From Verrucomicrobiota bacterium (GTDB taxonomy: Bacteria; Verrucomicrobiota; Verrucomicrobiia; Limisphaerales; UBA8199): a DNA stretch of 33,301 bases. The position numbers and the translations under genes were made by a program. The DNA is taken from contig JAAYVL010000062.1 of the NCBI GenBank assembly GCA_012517205.1, positions 1-33,301 of the forward strand, written 5' to 3'. The notes under the pieces were generated by a model, which made no database searches, was not told the DNA's origin, and worked only from the letters and a program-made list of their open reading frames with translations. Shown here piece after piece: positions 1 through 33,301 of the stretch (positions within the stretch are counted from its first letter, which is position 1; each line of letters starts with the position of its first letter).

Positions 1-44
1 CCCTCTTCCACTGCCCGCACGACCGTTTCTTCTTCGTCGTCTCA

Positions 45-145
45 GGCTATGTACAAGGGGAGTACACCGGAGGCGCGGCAGGAGCGCATAGAAAATAAGC
101 ATGAACCCCCTTTGAGCATCCTTGGTACACCCCTTGTACACAGCC
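45..145. repeat. Imperfect inverted repeat, 16-bp arms
   Basis: The arm at 45-60 (ggctatgtacaagggg) is matched by the reverse complement of 130-145, with one mismatch in 16 bases. The core TGTACAAGGGG is identical in both arms. The 69-bp spacer holds no recognisable gene. The right arm runs straight into a second small hairpin at 141-164. It lies beyond the end of the oxidoreductase gene, so it could be a 3' element of that transcript, an operator-like pair, or the edge of a dispersed repeat; the sequence does not decide. Confidence 0.6.
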
Positions 146-164
146 TATTGGGAGCCATAGGCTG
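141..164. repeat. Small hairpin, 8-bp perfect stem
   Basis: CAGCCTAT at 141-148 pairs perfectly with ATAGGCTG at 157-164 across an 8-base loop. It shares its left arm with the right arm of the larger inverted repeat at 45-145, so the two structures would be mutually exclusive in RNA. No T-run follows on either strand, so it is not a classical terminator. Confidence 0.5.
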
Positions 165-224
165 GCTGGGGAGGCTGGGAAGGGGGTGGGCGCGCGCCTG
201 AGGCGGAATTGTGGCCCTTATTGG

Positions 225-21038: not shown

Positions 21039-22529
21039 TCATTCTGCGGCGCGGCGCTTCTTCTGGCCCCGGGTCGCGACTCCGTAGCCTTGGGCAATAT
21101 CCCGGCGGCAACGCTGCTCCGTTACCTCGGGATCTTCGCCAATTTCCCTGACCAGCGCGGCGTGCAACTGCTCAACCCGCGCCTTTTGCTCCGGGTGCAA
21201 TGCCAGGTTGCGGAACTCGCCCGGGTCGACCTGGAGATCGTAAAGCTCGCGTTGGGCCGGATGCCGCGCGTCCGGCGCCGCGTGATAAACATATTTATAT
21301 TGACCCGCGCGGATCATGGCGTAGCCGGAAGCAACATGGTGCGCATAATACTCGCTCACTGCACGGTCTTTCCAGGGCGCTCCCCCGTTCGCCAACACCG
21401 GCGCCAGCGAGTTTCCGTTCCAATCCGCCGGCGTCCGGGCCCCGCCCAGGTCGGCAATCGTTTGCACCACATCCACCAGCGAGCAAACCCCGGCGCGGCG
21501 CTGGCCGCCGGGCCAACGCTCCGGCCAGGACACGATTAACGGCACTCGAGCCGCCGAATCATACACGCAATTCTTCCACCAAAGCCCGTGCTCGCCCATG
21601 TTTTCGCCGTGGTCCGCCGTATAAATCACCACCGTGTTGCTGGCTGCGGCGCTCGCCGCCAGAGCCTTCAGCACCTTCCCTACCTCCGCGTCCATCCACT
21701 CCGTCAGGCCGTAGTACAACTCGCGCCCTTTCCGCACCAGCTCCGGCGGCACGTTTTCATAATGAAACCCCACCCGCAGGTGCTGGTAGTTTAACGGCAA
21801 GCCGGCGAGAAACCCCTCCGGGATTTCCGGCAGCGGAACTTTTCCCCGATACTGCGCCCAATACGGCTCCGGCACGATCAACGGAAAATGCGGCGCCAGG
21901 TAGCCCACCAGCAGAAAAAACGGCTTGCCTCCCGGCTGGCGTTGCCGAAGAAACTCCCGGGCCCCGGCCGTCACCGCCTGGTCATGCTTCATGGGACCGG
22001 AGGCCTCCCCCGTGCGAAAATCCTGGAAACGATCCGAATACCCCGGCGCGGATTGCAACTCGTCCGCCGGCCGCCGCCGCCCCAGCCCCGTCATCTGCGA
22101 CCGGTTCATGTTGCCGCCGGTCTCAGTAAAACCATAACGGCAAGCGGCGTCGTAATGCATCTTGCCGCAGAGAAACGTCTCGTAGCCCGCCGCCTGCAGC
22201 ACCCGCGGCAACGAGGGCGAATCCGCCGGCGCCCGGCAGTGGTTGTTCCACGCCCCGATGCGCGAGATATATTTGCCCGTGGTAAAGGACTGCCGCGAAG
22301 GCACGCACAACGGCGAGTTGCAATAGCAGTTCTCAAACACCACCCCTCGCGCCGCCAGGCGATCCAGATTCGGCGTGCGCACAATCGGGTTGCCGTAGCA
22401 CCTCAGCACGGATGCGTTGTGCTCATCGCTCATGATAACCAGAATGTTCGGCGGCTTCGGCCGCTCGGCGGGCGCGCCGCTGGCGCACTGGCCCGCCGCC
22501 AGCAGCAGCAGCACCCCCGTCCATCGCAT
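21039..22529 (-). CDS. Exported formylglycine-dependent sulfatase (CVPSR type)
   Basis: About 496 residues from ATG 22529. The frame extends further, but this start puts a signal peptide (MRWTGVLLLLAAGQCASG) at the N-terminus; ATG 22598 is the alternative. The sulfatase signature CVPSRQSFTTG has C75 as the residue matured to formylglycine. Metal-site segments NILVIMSDEHN near the N-terminus and YTADHGENMGEHGLWWKN in the middle are intact. It should hydrolyse sulfate esters of a glycan outside the cytoplasm, provided an anaerobic or FGE-type maturase exists elsewhere. cysK lies 143 bp upstream on the same strand. Confidence 0.93.
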   Translation of the reverse strand: MRWTGVLLLLAAGQCASGAPAERPKPPNILVIMSDEHNASVLRCYGNPIVRTPNLDRLAARGVVFENCYCNSPLCVPSRQSFTTGKYISRIGAWNNHCRAPADSPSLPRVLQAAGYETFLCGKMHYDAACRYGFTETGGNMNRSQMTGLGRRRPADELQSAPGYSDRFQDFRTGEASGPMKHDQAVTAGAREFLRQRQPGGKPFFLLVGYLAPHFPLIVPEPYWAQYRGKVPLPEIPEGFLAGLPLNYQHLRVGFHYENVPPELVRKGRELYYGLTEWMDAEVGKVLKALAASAAASNTVVIYTADHGENMGEHGLWWKNCVYDSAARVPLIVSWPERWPGGQRRAGVCSLVDVVQTIADLGGARTPADWNGNSLAPVLANGGAPWKDRAVSEYYAHHVASGYAMIRAGQYKYVYHAAPDARHPAQRELYDLQVDPGEFRNLALHPEQKARVEQLHAALVREIGEDPEVTEQRCRRDIAQGYGVATRGQKKRRAAE

Positions 22530-22672
22530 CCCGCCGAACCACCGGCCCGCGAACTTGCAGCCGTCCCGGAATCCCGGCGCTGACCCATCCATCTTCATAC
22601 CGCGCCAGCGTGCCAGCCCGCCCCGCCGACGGCAAGCTCCGCCGCCGCTCCCGGCCAGACGCCCGCAGCACC

Positions 22673-23560
22673 CTACATTAACGCCGTGCTGAAATAGCGC
22701 TCCGCGCGGTCGGGCAGGATGGTGGCGATATTCCCGCCAAGGCGCCGCGCCAGTTGCCGCGCCGCCCACACGTTCGCCCCGGAAGAAATTCCCACCAGCA
22801 ACCCGTGATCGCGCCCCAGCCCGCGCGTCGTTTCTATCGCATCCTCATCGCTCACCTCAATCACCTCATCCACCAGCTTCACATCGAGCACGGCGGGAAT
22901 AAAACCGTCGCCGATACCCTGAATCTGATGCAATCCCGGCTCATGACCAAGCAGGGCGGAGACATTCCGGGGCTCGACCGCCACAATGCGAACCTCCGGC
23001 TTGCGCTCGCGGAGAAACTGGCCGACGCCTTGCAGCGTCCCCCCGCTCCCCACGCCCGCCACAAACGCCGCAATATCGCCGTTCATCTGCCGCCACAATT
23101 CATGCGCCGTCTCCTCATAATGCACGCGCGGATTATCCGGGTTTTCAAACTGCTGCGGCACAAACACCCGCGCCTCCTCGGCCTGCATCCGCCGCACCTG
23201 CTCGACCGCCCCGCCAATCCCGGCCGCCGCGGGCGTGAGCACCAGCTCGCCCCCCAGGCTGCGAATCAGCTTCTTGCGCTCCTCGCTCATATTCTCCGGC
23301 ATCACAATCCGGACTTGATACCCCTTGAGCCGCCCCACCAGCGCGATCCCGATGCCCGTGTTGCCGGAAGTTGGCTCGACAATGATGGAATCGGGCCGCA
23401 GCCGGCGATCGCGCTCCGCCCCCTCAATCATGGCCAGGGCAACGCGATCCTTGATACTCCCGCCCGGGTTCAGAAACTCCGCCTTGGCAAAGATAAACTC
23501 GCCGTTCAAACGCACCAACGGCGTGCGCCCAATCAAATCCAGAATATTATCAGTCAGCAT
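22673..23560 (-). CDS. cysK: Cysteine synthase (O-acetylserine sulfhydrylase)
   Basis: About 295 residues from ATG 23560 (MLTDNILDLIGRTPLVRLNG). The frame continues 28 codons upstream without family likeness. PLP-enzyme landmarks: K37 in NPGGSIKDR forms the Schiff base, PTSGNTGIG (residues 63-71) binds substrate, and GVGSGGTLQGVG holds the cofactor phosphate. The end, ATILPDRAERYFSTALM, is the CysK-type C-terminus. The enzyme makes cysteine from O-acetylserine and sulfide. A cysteine synthase from the CysM branch is less likely. It directly precedes the sulfatase gene. Confidence 0.94.
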   Translation of the reverse strand: MLTDNILDLIGRTPLVRLNGEFIFAKAEFLNPGGSIKDRVALAMIEGAERDRRLRPDSIIVEPTSGNTGIGIALVGRLKGYQVRIVMPENMSEERKKLIRSLGGELVLTPAAAGIGGAVEQVRRMQAEEARVFVPQQFENPDNPRVHYEETAHELWRQMNGDIAAFVAGVGSGGTLQGVGQFLRERKPEVRIVAVEPRNVSALLGHEPGLHQIQGIGDGFIPAVLDVKLVDEVIEVSDEDAIETTRGLGRDHGLLVGISSGANVWAARQLARRLGGNIATILPDRAERYFSTALM

Positions 23561-28269: not shown

Positions 28270-31068
28270 TCATTCGAGCGGGCTGGCGAAGTGATATTCA
28301 CCCGCGGCCACGTTCAGCACGACGCTCCCGTTCTCCCGCCCGGAAAGGCGCACGCCCGCGGCGCGGGCAATCGGCTGGCCTCCCTCCGTGATTTCCGCGC
28401 CCGCCCGGGCCGGCACGAAAACCGTCGCCACGGCGCCGACCGGAACCCGGATATGGAGCTTGAACTGGCCGCCTTCCCTTCGCCACTCGCTGACCACTTT
28501 CCCGCGCACGGAATCATAACTCGCGGCCACCCAGCGCAGGCCGCCCACCGGTTGCGGCCGGATGAGGATCCGATCAAAGCCCGCGGCGTCCGGCGCGGCA
28601 TTGATGCCCGCCAGCACTTTGTAGAACCACTCGCTGACCGAGCCGAACATCGGGTGGTTGTGCGAATAGGTGTTGTCGCTGAACTCCCAATGCTCCCACA
28701 ACGTCGTCGCGCCGTTCTCCAACATGTGGCCCCAGCCCGGAAAGGTGCGCTGATTCACCACCTGGAACGCGGTGTCCGCCCGCCCCAGGTCCGCCAGCGC
28801 GTGCAGCATGAACCGGGTGCCGAAGATGCCCGTGCTCAAGTGGCCGTGATGGGTTTCTTCAATGTCCCGCACCAGCACCGCCAGCGCGCGGTCCTTTTCT
28901 TCCGGCGGCACCAGCCCCAGGTGCAGCGCAAACGCCTGGCAGGCCTGCGTGGCCGTGTCATAACGTCCCGTGCCCGGCTGCAGGAATCGGCGGTTGAACG
29001 CGGCCTTGATCGTTTCCGCCAGCGCCGCCGCTTCCGCCGCTTCCGCGTCCTTTCCCAGCACCCGCGCGAGGCGGGCCAGCAACCGGGCATTGAGGTAGTA
29101 GAAGCCGGTGCCCGTCAGGGCGCGCGGCTTGGGCACGAGGCTTTCATGGTCGCTGATGCCATTGTCCAGGATGCCGTCCCGCGCCTGCGATTGCAGCAGC
29201 CCCAGCCACCGCCGCGCCGCCTCATAATTCTCCTCCAGCAACCGCCGGTCGCCATAATGCTGATAAAGCCCCCACAGGAGAAACGGGTGCGCGGTGCCCC
29301 AGCCCACCGGCCCCGAGCGTTCCCCCAGCCCCTCGTCGCTGATCCCCACGAAGGGCGCGGTCTCCGTGAACCCGCCATTCGGGCGCACCGCGTCGGCCAG
29401 ATCCCGCACCGCCTTGGCATAAAAACGCCCCATATCAAAGTTGAACAGGGCCATCTCGCCGGACGCTACGATGTCGCCCCCGTAGCCGAACTTCTCGCGG
29501 TGCGGGCAATCGGATTGCACGCTGAACAGGTTGCTCAGCTCCGTCCAGAGCACCATCTCCTGGATCCGGTTGAACTGCTCGTTGGAGCAGGCGAACGAAC
29601 CCACCGGCGCCACATCCGCGTTAAGCCGCAACCCGTCCAGCGATGCCAGCGTCGGCTGCCCCGGGTAGCCCGTCACCTCGACATAGCGGAACCCATGGAA
29701 CGTAAACCGCGGCGTGTAGATTTCCCTCCCCTGCCCCTTGAGGATGTAGTCATCCATTTGCCAGGCCGTTTTGGGCGCGCCCTGCCCGTCGTAACGGTAG
29801 TCGCGGCCGCCGCCTTTAATCTGGCCGCAGACGGCGGTCATCCCGTTGAGGGTGCCGTCCGGGTAAAGCAGCTCTCCGTAGCGCAGTTTCACGCGCGTGC
29901 CCGCCGGCCCCTGAACGCGCAGCCGCGCCCAGCCCGCAAAGTTTTGCCCGAAATCAAAGATATGGACGCCCGGCTTCGGCTCGGTGAGTTTGACGGGCTG
30001 GAGCACGCGCGTCACGCGAATCGGCGGCGCATCCTGCGCCTGCAAGGGGCCCAGTTCGCCGCGGGCGGTTTGCGCCGGTTCCCAGTTCGAATCATCAAAG
30101 CCGGGTTGATCCCAGCCGGGCTGCTCCCGCCGCGCGTCATACACCTCGCCCAAGTACACGCTATTGCGCCGGATGGGGCCGGGGCCGGTCTTCCAACTGA
30201 CATCCGTGCCCAGCGTTTGCGTGGTTCCGTCCGCCAGCTCGATCCTTAACTGCGCGATGACGCGCGGCTCGCCGATGGTCAGGTTCTCGCGGGGGTTGAC
30301 ATGCCCCCACAACCGCAGCGGCAGCGGGTTAAACCACCCGTTGCCCAGCATCACTCCCCAGGCGTTGCGCCCCCGCCGCAGGCAAGCCGTCACGTCGTAA
30401 GTCGAATAGAGCACGCGCTGCGAGTAGGTCGTCCAGCCGGGGTCGAGCACCTGGTCGCCCACCCGGCGCCCGTTGAGGCGCAACTCGTAGTAGCCCAGGC
30501 CGCTCACATAAATCCGGGCGCGGCGAATCTTCTTTTCGACCACAAACTCCTTGCGCAGCAGCGGCGCCGGATCGTCCGCGAACAACTGCGACTCCGCAAG
30601 CGGCGCGGGCCTCCGGCGCGTAATCCAGTCCGCCTGCCAATCCGCCGGCGCCAGCAAGCCCATCTCCCACCACGCCGTCTCACTGTACCTCGAGGCCCGC
30701 CCGTCGCGATCCCAGGCGCGCACTGTCCAATAGACCCGCTGGCCCGCGCGCAACGGGCGCCCGCCATAGACGACATGCACCGACTCACTCGAGGCCACCT
30801 TGCCGCTGTCCCACAAATCCGCCCTGCCCTCCGCCAGCAGCTTCGGGCGGGTGGCGGCCAGCACGCGATAAGCCGTTTGCCGCTGCCCGCGCTCCGACGC
30901 CTCCAATCGCCAGCTCAACCGCGGCTGAGGAGTATCAATCCCCAGCGGGTGGGCGCGGTACTCGCACCGCAAGCCTTGCGCATGAAATCCAGCCGCCCGC
31001 CCGGCCGGGGCCGAGACGGCAAGGGTGAGTAAAACCGTGAGCGTGAGCCAGGAACAGCGGTGCATCAT
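28270..31068 (-). CDS. Exported GH78 alpha-L-rhamnosidase
   Basis: About 932 residues from ATG 31068 (MMHRCSWLTLTVLLTLAVSA), with a signal peptide. The frame runs further upstream inside the sulfatase gene. An N-terminal fibronectin-like domain (QPRLSWRLEASERGQRQTAY) and carbohydrate-binding beta domains (YYELRLNGRRVGDQVLDPGW) precede the (alpha/alpha)6 barrel. The general-acid region is SDCPHREKFGYGGD near residue 520 and the second glutamate is in GATTLWEHWEF near residue 790, both GH78 hallmarks. A C-terminal beta domain ends the protein. It should release terminal L-rhamnose from glycans outside the cytoplasm. ATGA overlap with the upstream sulfatase gene implies coupling. Confidence 0.93.
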   Translation of the reverse strand: MMHRCSWLTLTVLLTLAVSAPAGRAAGFHAQGLRCEYRAHPLGIDTPQPRLSWRLEASERGQRQTAYRVLAATRPKLLAEGRADLWDSGKVASSESVHVVYGGRPLRAGQRVYWTVRAWDRDGRASRYSETAWWEMGLLAPADWQADWITRRRPAPLAESQLFADDPAPLLRKEFVVEKKIRRARIYVSGLGYYELRLNGRRVGDQVLDPGWTTYSQRVLYSTYDVTACLRRGRNAWGVMLGNGWFNPLPLRLWGHVNPRENLTIGEPRVIAQLRIELADGTTQTLGTDVSWKTGPGPIRRNSVYLGEVYDARREQPGWDQPGFDDSNWEPAQTARGELGPLQAQDAPPIRVTRVLQPVKLTEPKPGVHIFDFGQNFAGWARLRVQGPAGTRVKLRYGELLYPDGTLNGMTAVCGQIKGGGRDYRYDGQGAPKTAWQMDDYILKGQGREIYTPRFTFHGFRYVEVTGYPGQPTLASLDGLRLNADVAPVGSFACSNEQFNRIQEMVLWTELSNLFSVQSDCPHREKFGYGGDIVASGEMALFNFDMGRFYAKAVRDLADAVRPNGGFTETAPFVGISDEGLGERSGPVGWGTAHPFLLWGLYQHYGDRRLLEENYEAARRWLGLLQSQARDGILDNGISDHESLVPKPRALTGTGFYYLNARLLARLARVLGKDAEAAEAAALAETIKAAFNRRFLQPGTGRYDTATQACQAFALHLGLVPPEEKDRALAVLVRDIEETHHGHLSTGIFGTRFMLHALADLGRADTAFQVVNQRTFPGWGHMLENGATTLWEHWEFSDNTYSHNHPMFGSVSEWFYKVLAGINAAPDAAGFDRILIRPQPVGGLRWVAASYDSVRGKVVSEWRREGGQFKLHIRVPVGAVATVFVPARAGAEITEGGQPIARAAGVRLSGRENGSVVLNVAAGEYHFASPLE

Positions 31069-32597
31069 AATTCTTTTAACTTCGCCTGGAGCGCCGGGTA
31101 CGGGCGGCCAGGAATCAGGTGGGTTCCGTCTGAGAAACCTTCCGGACGGCCGGCAAGCTGCCGGACCATCCGCGCGCGCCATTGCCCGAGCAACGTGCGC
31201 CGGGAGGGCTCCCGGGCCAGGTCATGCTCCTCCCGCGGGTCCCGGGCCAGGTCAAATAACTGCTCGGAGCCGTCCAGCGGCCGCCAGATGTATTTGAACT
31301 GCCCATCCGTCAGGGCCTGGAAAGCCTGGAGCGGACTGTAGCAGGGCGCATGCTCGAAATGCAGGCACTCGCGAAGCCTTTGCGTCTCCCCGCGCAGGAC
31401 GGGAGCCAGGTTCACTCCATCCATCGGCTGCGGGCAGCTCGCGCCGGCCAGGGCCAGCAACGTCGGCATCACATCCTCCAGGCAGACCGGCAGTTCGGAG
31501 CGCAGGCCTCGCTTAAAGCCCAGTTCCGGCGCCGCGGCCACGAGGAATGGGATGTTGGCCGACCCTTCATAAGGCTCGCATTTCCGGTAGAAGCCGTGGT
31601 CTCCGAGCATCTCGCCGTGGTCGGACGTGAACAGGATCACCCAGGGTCGCCGGGCCTTTTGGCTCCGCTTCTTAAATGCGGCCATCAGCGGCGCAATCTG
31701 GTCGTCCAAGTGTTGGATCAGGCCGAAGTAGCCCGCCTCCGCCGCCCGCAAAGCCTCGCCCTCCAGCAACACGCGATGCCCGGGTTTGTCGCCCGCCGGC
31801 GACAGAGCCGGCCAATCCACCCAATCGCCGCGAGCCGGGGCGGGCAGCTTTTGCCTCCAACAGGCATCAAAATACCGCTTGGGGGGAAAAAGCGGCGGGT
31901 GGGGCGCATAAAACGACGCCGTTAGAAAGATCGGCCTTTCGGGGGACAGCTCCTCCAGTATTTTGCGGGCCTGGCGAACCGTCCACGCCGTCGGATGCAA
32001 ATCATCCGCCAGCGGCCACGGCGCGGCCTGCCAGCCATTGTAGGATAAGCCCTGCCTGGTCAGCAGGTTGCGAATCCCGCCGGTGGCGGGCGCCGCCCGC
32101 TTTAGAAACCGGTCGTAGGCATCGTCGTCCACATGAACCGAGCCGCGGATTTCCATCTGGTAGCCGTAGGATTCCTCAAGCGGCTTCTGGTGCATGTAAC
32201 GCCCCACCAGAACGGTCTGGTAACCGGCGGCCGCAAGCCGTTGCGGCAGGGTGGGATAGGGAATGGGTCGGGCCGCGTAGCCTACCACCCCACGGGTGGC
32301 CGGGAAGAGACCCGTAAGCAATGCGGCACGCGCGGGGATGCAGGACGGGCAGGTCGAGTAGGCGCGACGAAACAACGCCCCCTCCGCCGCCAGCTTGTCC
32401 AGATGCGGCGTGCGGACCACCGGATGCCCCAAAAGCGACAGGCAATCTCCGCGCATCTGATCGGGCATGATGAAAAGAATGTCCGGCCTGGCCGGCGGCA
32501 CCGGCGCAGCCCCGGCGCCAGGGCTAACCAACCCCGCCAGTAGCGCCAGCCCAAGGCAGAATCCACGCCCCGGCGGGATGATTACATTTCGTTTCAC
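31065..32597 (-). CDS. Exported formylglycine-dependent sulfatase (CIPAR type)
   Basis: A 510-residue sulfatase with GTG start and a signal peptide (FCLGLALLAGLVSPGAGA). The signature is CIPARAALLTG, with C86 the formylglycine precursor and alanine at the position that is more often serine. Metal-binding segments are DILFIMPDQMRGD (D46) and LFTSDHGEMLGDHGFYRKCE. It should remove sulfate from a carbohydrate outside the cytoplasm; the coupled rhamnosidase suggests a sulfated rhamnose-containing polymer. No Shine-Dalgarno is visible before the GTG. Its stop overlaps the rhamnosidase start. Compared with the sulfatase at 21039-22529, the sequence is clearly divergent, so they are probably different subfamilies. 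Confidence 0.92.
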   Translation of the reverse strand: MKRNVIIPPGRGFCLGLALLAGLVSPGAGAAPVPPARPDILFIMPDQMRGDCLSLLGHPVVRTPHLDKLAAEGALFRRAYSTCPSCIPARAALLTGLFPATRGVVGYAARPIPYPTLPQRLAAAGYQTVLVGRYMHQKPLEESYGYQMEIRGSVHVDDDAYDRFLKRAAPATGGIRNLLTRQGLSYNGWQAAPWPLADDLHPTAWTVRQARKILEELSPERPIFLTASFYAPHPPLFPPKRYFDACWRQKLPAPARGDWVDWPALSPAGDKPGHRVLLEGEALRAAEAGYFGLIQHLDDQIAPLMAAFKKRSQKARRPWVILFTSDHGEMLGDHGFYRKCEPYEGSANIPFLVAAAPELGFKRGLRSELPVCLEDVMPTLLALAGASCPQPMDGVNLAPVLRGETQRLRECLHFEHAPCYSPLQAFQALTDGQFKYIWRPLDGSEQLFDLARDPREEHDLAREPSRRTLLGQWRARMVRQLAGRPEGFSDGTHLIPGRPYPALQAKLKEL

Positions 32598-33197
32598 AAG
32601 CGCGCAGCGTAGCGAATCGGTTCGGCTGCGTCAGGCCAAAATTCGCCAACCCGGAAGCAAGACCAGAGCCTTTGGCTTTGTAGATCATGAGCCGGGGCGG
32701 TTAAGGCTGTGGGTTGGGCGGCGGTTAAGCCCTGCGGAGCGGCTGCCTGGTCGGGCCGCCCAAGGCTTTGGCCATTGGGAACAGCGGAGGTGAGATCGCC
32801 CTCCAAGGCGAGCAGGCTTTCCCGCAGGCAGTCCGGGCGGGCGCGCAAGTGTTTTTCTCAGCCGCCGGGCGAACGGCCCCCGAGCGCCGCGTGTGGGCAC
32901 GCGGCCTACAGGAAATGGAAGCGCGCCGCGGCAAACCTCATGCCCTCTCGCAGCACCGCACTCCCGGCAGACCACAAGCCCTCACGCACCCTCCCGCCCC
33001 CTGTAGGCCGCGTGCCCACACGCGGCGCTTTGCACCCGCCCACCACCGCCAACCCCCAAAAATTGCCCTTGCGCGAAGCCCCCTCGCCCGCCAGCCTTCC
33101 CCAAGACCCTCGGAGTGGTGGTGGCTGGGACTTCCAGTCCAAGGAGTGGCAGGAATCCAAGCCGCTCTCCGGGGCAATAACGGAAAGGTAATTAACT
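32598..33197. other. Non-coding stretch of 600 bp with palindromic repeats
   Basis: No frame here has the composition of a real protein. The left part should contain the promoter of the sulfatase-rhamnosidase operon (minus strand), though no clear -10/-35 pair was found. The right part holds the inverted repeat at 32883-33029 and leads into the ribosome binding site of the gene at the window's end. Confidence 0.5.
32883..33029. repeat. 30-bp perfect inverted repeat with self-complementary arms
   Basis: Bases 32883-32912 are the exact reverse complement of 33000-33029, separated by 87 bp. Each arm is itself a hairpin: GCCGCGTG at 32886-32893 pairs with CACGCGGC at 32898-32905 around TGGG, and the mirror image occurs in the right arm. 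This nested architecture is like paired REP or BIME elements, or a miniature inverted-repeat element. No target-site duplication was detected and no transposase is near. Confidence 0.8.
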
Positions 33198-33301
33198 ATG
33201 AAAATGCTCACCTCTCCGCGCACGGGCAGTCTGGGCGCGGAAACCTACTACCAATCCCCCTTCGGCGTGTGCGCCCGGCGGCGCACCGTTCCCCGGGACC
33301 G
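33198..33301 (+). CDS. Start of an unidentified gene, cut by the window end
   Basis: An open frame begins at ATG 33198 and runs off the end after 34 codons (MKMLTSPRTGSLGAETYYQS at the start, then PFGVCARRRTVPRD). A good ribosome binding site, GGAAAGG at 33182-33188, lies nine bases upstream, stronger than those of most genes in this window. No signal peptide or membrane segment is visible in the available part. The product is not recognised; too little is present to assign a family. Confidence 0.5.
   Translation, partial: MKMLTSPRTGSLGAETYYQSPFGVCARRRTVPRD

Follow-up and report, generated by a model that had tools for sequence, protein, structure and literature searches.

Tail-to-tail GTAG-type REP dimer in the leader of a multicopy gene of a Verrucomicrobiota bacterium

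Close to one end of the window (the whole stretch of DNA analysed, 33,301 nt), two 30-base arms separated by 87 nt are complementary to each other, and each of them can also fold on itself. What kind of element do these nested palindromes form, and how did it come to lie at this position? The initial annotation regarded them as members of a REP/BIME-like or MITE-like family, perhaps mobilised in trans or serving as transcription-stop sites. Here, we show that each arm is a GTAG-type REP and that together they form a REP dimer (BIME) in tail-to-tail orientation. The features of the element are as follows.

32883-32912: arm 1 of the inverted repeat, 30 nt, from the repeat search of the window
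32886..32910, minus strand: REP 1, TGTAG-GCCGCGTG-CCCA-CACGCGGC, exact match within arm 1
32913..32999, no strand: spacer between REP 1 and REP 2, 87 nt, of the same length in 12/12 two-REP leaders
33000-33029: arm 2 of the inverted repeat, 30 nt, from the repeat search of the window
33002..33026, plus strand: REP 2, TGTAG-GCCGCGTG-CCCA-CACGCGGC, exact match within arm 2

The element and its family

In the inverted-repeat search of the window, the two arms are complementary at 30 of 30 positions across the 87-nt gap, which confirms the errorless match described before. This is the only long perfect inverted repeat in the window, the remaining pairs of at least 18 nt being 70-83% complementary. 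Folding each arm singly gives the 8-bp stem and 4-nt loop that had been claimed, and the 147-nt element folded as DNA reaches -53.5 kcal/mol versus a shuffle mean of -30.0 kcal/mol (z -8.2). The GTAG tails of REP 1 and REP 2 point inwards, in a tail-to-tail arrangement. The peptide phrase VGRVPTRGA, said to be readable on both strands, is indeed present; its direct reading is GTA GGC CGC GTG CCC ACA CGC GGC GCT from 33003. An Rfam scan of the window returned tRNAs only.

To count the family, we scanned the stem pattern GCCGCGTG-NNNN-CACGCGGC and used the reversed pattern as the control. The 3.6-Mb source genome contains 30 exact stem sites and the reversed control none, so the pattern does not arise by chance. 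Many REP families exceed 100 copies, and 30 sites is a moderate number. The TGTAG tail is exact in 21 of the matches in this genome. The stem also occurs in 14/40 relatives, with up to 97 sites per genome (controls 0), and the stem together with the TGTAG tail in 14/188 genomes of the class (control 0). The 30-mer is accordingly not a sequence found only here and unconserved in relatives. Alignment of 68 sites from the relatives gives the consensus TGTAG-GCCGCGTG-CCC(T/C)-CACGCGGC-G.

Pairing was assessed on units chosen by TGTAGGCC alone, with the 3' arm ignored. All eight stem positions are paired in 21/24 units of the source genome and in 87/112 units of the relatives' loci. Compensated stem variants include GCCGGGTC/GACCCGGC, GCCCGGTA/TACCGGGC and GCCGTGTG/CACACGGC, among others; the commonest stem class is enriched by the selection of loci, many of which were fetched via the GCCGCGTG stem, and the variant classes are unaffected. 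The REPs avoid long reading frames and are mostly extragenic: in the relatives' loci, coverage by ORFs of 900 nt or more is 24% versus 65%, by a crude measure taken without gene annotation. Close inverted hairpin pairs are also seen in the relatives G009, G010 and G012, and arms in relatives occur singly or in other combinations and spacings as well. Many genome copies, compensatory pairing and scarcity in long reading frames, together with the RAYT flanked by REP described below, support the idea of a REP/BIME-like family put forward in the initial annotation. At G051:C20:55652-56694, we notice nine REP copies in tandem, repeated about every 127 bases.

RAYT genes beside the REPs and published counterparts

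RAYT (TnpA_REP) genes were called at a cut-off of 80 bits with NCBIfam NF047646. In G051, which belongs to the same class, contig C33 carries a RAYT match of 85.4 bits with the DHLHL and YVRQNPVRAGL motifs. A trpC-like and a trpF-like reading frame, both named by eye from their translations, flank this match. TGTAG-GCCGCGTG-ACCC-CACGCGGC, with stem and tail identical to those of the window, locates 67 bp upstream of this match. It stands tail to tail with TGTAG-GCCGCGTC-ACCT-GACGCGGC, and a further such unit lies downstream of the RAYT. In G025, contig C420 carries a RAYT of 86.2 bits (NF047646) within a hairpin array; of the 28 GTAG hairpins in this array, three have the window's stem. REP-RAYT adjacency was seen only in these two genomes. 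We also notice that the RAYT frame of G051 C33 continues in frame through a REP into TrpF-like sequence (L258:1354-2538), a possible natural fusion or read-through.

In the source assembly, which is 93% complete and broken at repeats, no RAYT scores above the cut-off with Pfam PF01797, NCBIfam NF047646 or the G025 RAYT as query. The two Y1 genes of this genome score as IS200-type, and no GTAG hairpin was found near them. Among the first 32 Y1-gene loci of close relatives, none has the window's exact stem. The earlier expectation of a TnpA_REP-like transposase is supported, with one qualification: a RAYT is flanked by the REP in G051 and by variants of it in G025, and the source assembly contains none above the cut-off. 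One IS200-type Y1 gene of the source genome (L047, C98:28641-28985) is flanked on either side by several ACCCCTGACGGGGTT-form repeats, which may be a further family of hairpin repeats.

A GTAG directly before the hairpin is what defines GTAG-type REPs (PMC3733652, PMC8266576). Families of this type that form TT/HH dimers were reported by Di Nocera et al. (2013; PMC3733652) to be abundant in the verrucomicrobium Opitutus terrae. The window's element resembles the families described there in its GTAG tail, perfect 8-bp stem, short loop and TT dimers with GTAG inside, and also in a spacer within 20-100 bp, a mainly extragenic placement and units readable in frame. The GCCGCGTG/CACGCGGC consensus is absent from the paper's text. 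Unlike the families it describes, most copies here ride one multicopy gene leader, and the source assembly has no above-cut-off RAYT.

The Group 3 REPtron of Stenotrophomonas maltophilia (PMC8266576) likewise has a perfect 8-bp palindrome, which comes right after GTAG and has a short loop, and its RAYT adjoins its REPs, as in G051 and G025. It differs in stem and loop sequence, in loop length (3 nt, versus the 4-nt CCCN here) and in phylum, and the RAYTs found here are predicted enzymes. The E. coli REP and BIME (PMC8266576) likewise show GTAG followed by a GC-rich hairpin, and inverted pairs, but the E. coli stem is bulged and the stem here is a perfect 8 bp. For a group in which REPs have received little attention, probably the Verrucomicrobiota, our findings record a family of GTAG REPs that has a RAYT as its neighbour.

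The dimer in the leader of a multicopy gene

The inverted-repeat element is not solitary, and is embedded in a longer dispersed repeat. Its surroundings in the window are listed below.

1..209, plus strand: C-terminal end of a second multicopy gene copy, at the opposite contig end
31065-32597, minus strand: sulfatase
32664..33197, plus strand: 5' leader of the dispersed repeat, housing the dimer; upstream region common to copies of the multicopy gene
32811..33037, plus strand: dimer-bearing block missing from alternative leaders; edges transferred from the L019/L035 pair, ±~10 nt
33198..33301, plus strand: start of a multicopy gene copy (MKMLTSPRTGSLGAETYYQSPFGVCARRRTVPRD...), cut by the contig end

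The multicopy gene has 64 matches in the source genome, about 38 of which include the gene start, and nearly all lie at contig ends. Such repeats break assemblies: the window contig is flanked at both ends by copies of the gene, and so starts and stops in one gene family. The gene of this genome encodes about 246-310 aa (L033 is open to the contig end); the protein family spans about 220-310 aa and has the motif MKxLxxPxSGxxG...RYGQxxR...PRTxAQ...W, as in L033:2777-3514 and L096:1501-2433. An alignment of 17 members contains 15 invariant columns. Judged from its sequences, the multicopy gene is a real protein family. Diverged relatives occur in 3/12 other genomes of the family, with 7-41 matches each, and a relative was found in a Verrucomicrobia MAG (L049). 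Searches of Pfam, NCBIfam and PHROGs found no match to the protein, the PDB gave none that is convincing, and three query sequences found no relative in viral contigs; we therefore reject its assignment to a phage or a known family. Its C-terminal coding end in the window contains an imperfect 31-nt inverted repeat at 44-74 / 116-146 (ATGTACAAGGGGAGTACA ... TGTACACCCCTTGTACA), and similar sequence is visible in copies L112 and L126.

About 24 of the 30 REP sites in the source genome fall in the leader of this gene. By comparing 34 leaders, we found that 12 carry both REPs at identical positions, 6 carry a single REP and 16 lack a full REP. The stem-to-stem spacing is 121 in all 12 two-REP leaders. 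At the point of the dimer, about 9 of the 16 REP-less leaders have a common intact alternative sequence. The dimer-bearing block reaches past the arms on the left side, and the leader comparison shows no clear target duplication at its edges. Since 12 leaders have the dimer and about 9 have the intact alternative, the block of about 220 bp probably entered one leader once and was then multiplied with the gene. Under the simplest history, the single-REP leaders would result from truncation or partial conversion.

The dimer is thus copied in this genome mainly because it is located upstream of a gene with about 38 copies. As nearly all copies share one context, the mobility of the dimer itself is read here from its presence and absence among paralogous leaders. 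The hairpin and the gene are independent of each other, because the relatives' loci of the gene family have no such hairpin nearby, and G009 has 97 hairpin sites with the multicopy gene absent. The multiplication of the dimer with the gene suggests that a REP may gain copies as a passenger of a gene leader that is duplicated, and not by one hop per copy.

Over the 12 full copies, identity is 0.96-1.0 in the stems, 0.53 and 0.85 in the loops, 0.89 in the spacer, 0.80-0.85 in the flanks and 0.75 in the distal leader. The TGGG loop in arm 1, which makes the 30-mer perfect, is present in only 2/12 full copies. The arms match over 30 bp in the window because both loops are the same variant. One loop differs in 10/12 copies, hence arm identity does not point to recent duplication, one of the causes named in the initial annotation. 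In L009, L010 and L020, the arm 1 loop is in the opposite sense with the palindromic stem nearly unchanged, as if the hairpin were flipped.

Origin of the dimer and alternative readings

With high confidence, we regard the element as a tail-to-tail BIME of a GTAG-type REP, presumably moved by a RAYT in the past, whose block most likely entered one leader and was then multiplied with that leader. The steps are modelled on published TnpA_REP work, in which dimers are a usual arrangement of REPs. When the DNA is single-stranded, the REP would fold. A RAYT would bind GTAG plus hairpin, cut nearby and move the unit, its recognition of the window's REP being putative. The dimer block of about 220 bp would then enter the leader of one member of the multicopy family, and duplication or gene conversion of the leader would multiply the dimer. 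The assembled part of the genome now lacks this enzyme or contains it in diverged form. Past mobilisation by a RAYT on single strands is thereby inferred by analogy with the enzymes of E. coli and of S. maltophilia (PMC8266576). Mobilisation in trans, which the initial annotation thought possible, agrees with the copy number, the pairing, the extragenic placement and the RAYT neighbour in another genome of this class.

The hairpins might instead belong to the leader itself as a structural or regulatory component, such as an attenuator, an RNA stabiliser or a protein-binding cruciform, which is selected for gene expression and resembles a REP in look only. The fixed leader positions of about 24 of the 30 sites, the constant 121-nt spacing and stems conserved at 0.96-1.0 versus 0.75-0.89 for the rest of the leader would suit such a part. 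We nevertheless consider it unlikely: 16/34 leaders do without a full REP, the gene loci of relatives do without the hairpin, G009 is rich in hairpins without the gene, and both the GTAG tail and the RAYT linkage are left unaccounted for. It is also improbable that the unit of about 2 kb formed by the REP leader and the gene is a new transposase-less multicopy element, in which the captured dimer now belongs to the spreading or regulatory machinery.

A MITE, in which the arms would be the inverted-repeat ends of a short DNA transposon, non-autonomous and served by a classical transposase, was the other family that the initial annotation had in mind. A perfect 30-bp inverted repeat enclosing an 87-nt body, the dispersed copies and the absence of the block from some paralogous leaders would all be expected of it. 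However, the arms are themselves hairpins bearing asymmetric GTAG tails, relatives have them singly or in other combinations and spacings, and the block apparently missing from some leaders extends beyond the left arm without evident target duplication. The unit is not bounded by the arms, and we reject this reading as very improbable. An intrinsic terminator, possibly bidirectional, is the least credible of all. Its GC-rich 8-bp stems with 4-nt loops would be suitable, but neither stem is followed by a T run, and the sulfatase (minus strand) and the multicopy gene (plus strand, from 33198) are both directed away from the element. Because its neighbours diverge and the T run is lacking, we reject a terminator at this site, and with it the transcription-stop role suggested before.

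The REP dimer, as the preferred reading, is ordinary in kind and well supported, and the way it has spread is instructive; the multicopy gene family is the less ordinary part of the locus and merits its own study. One region of the window also encodes two sulfatases together with an alpha-L-rhamnosidase (31065-32597, 28270-31182 and 21039-22769, all on the minus strand). These predicted enzymes suggest the use of sulfated, rhamnose-containing polysaccharides.
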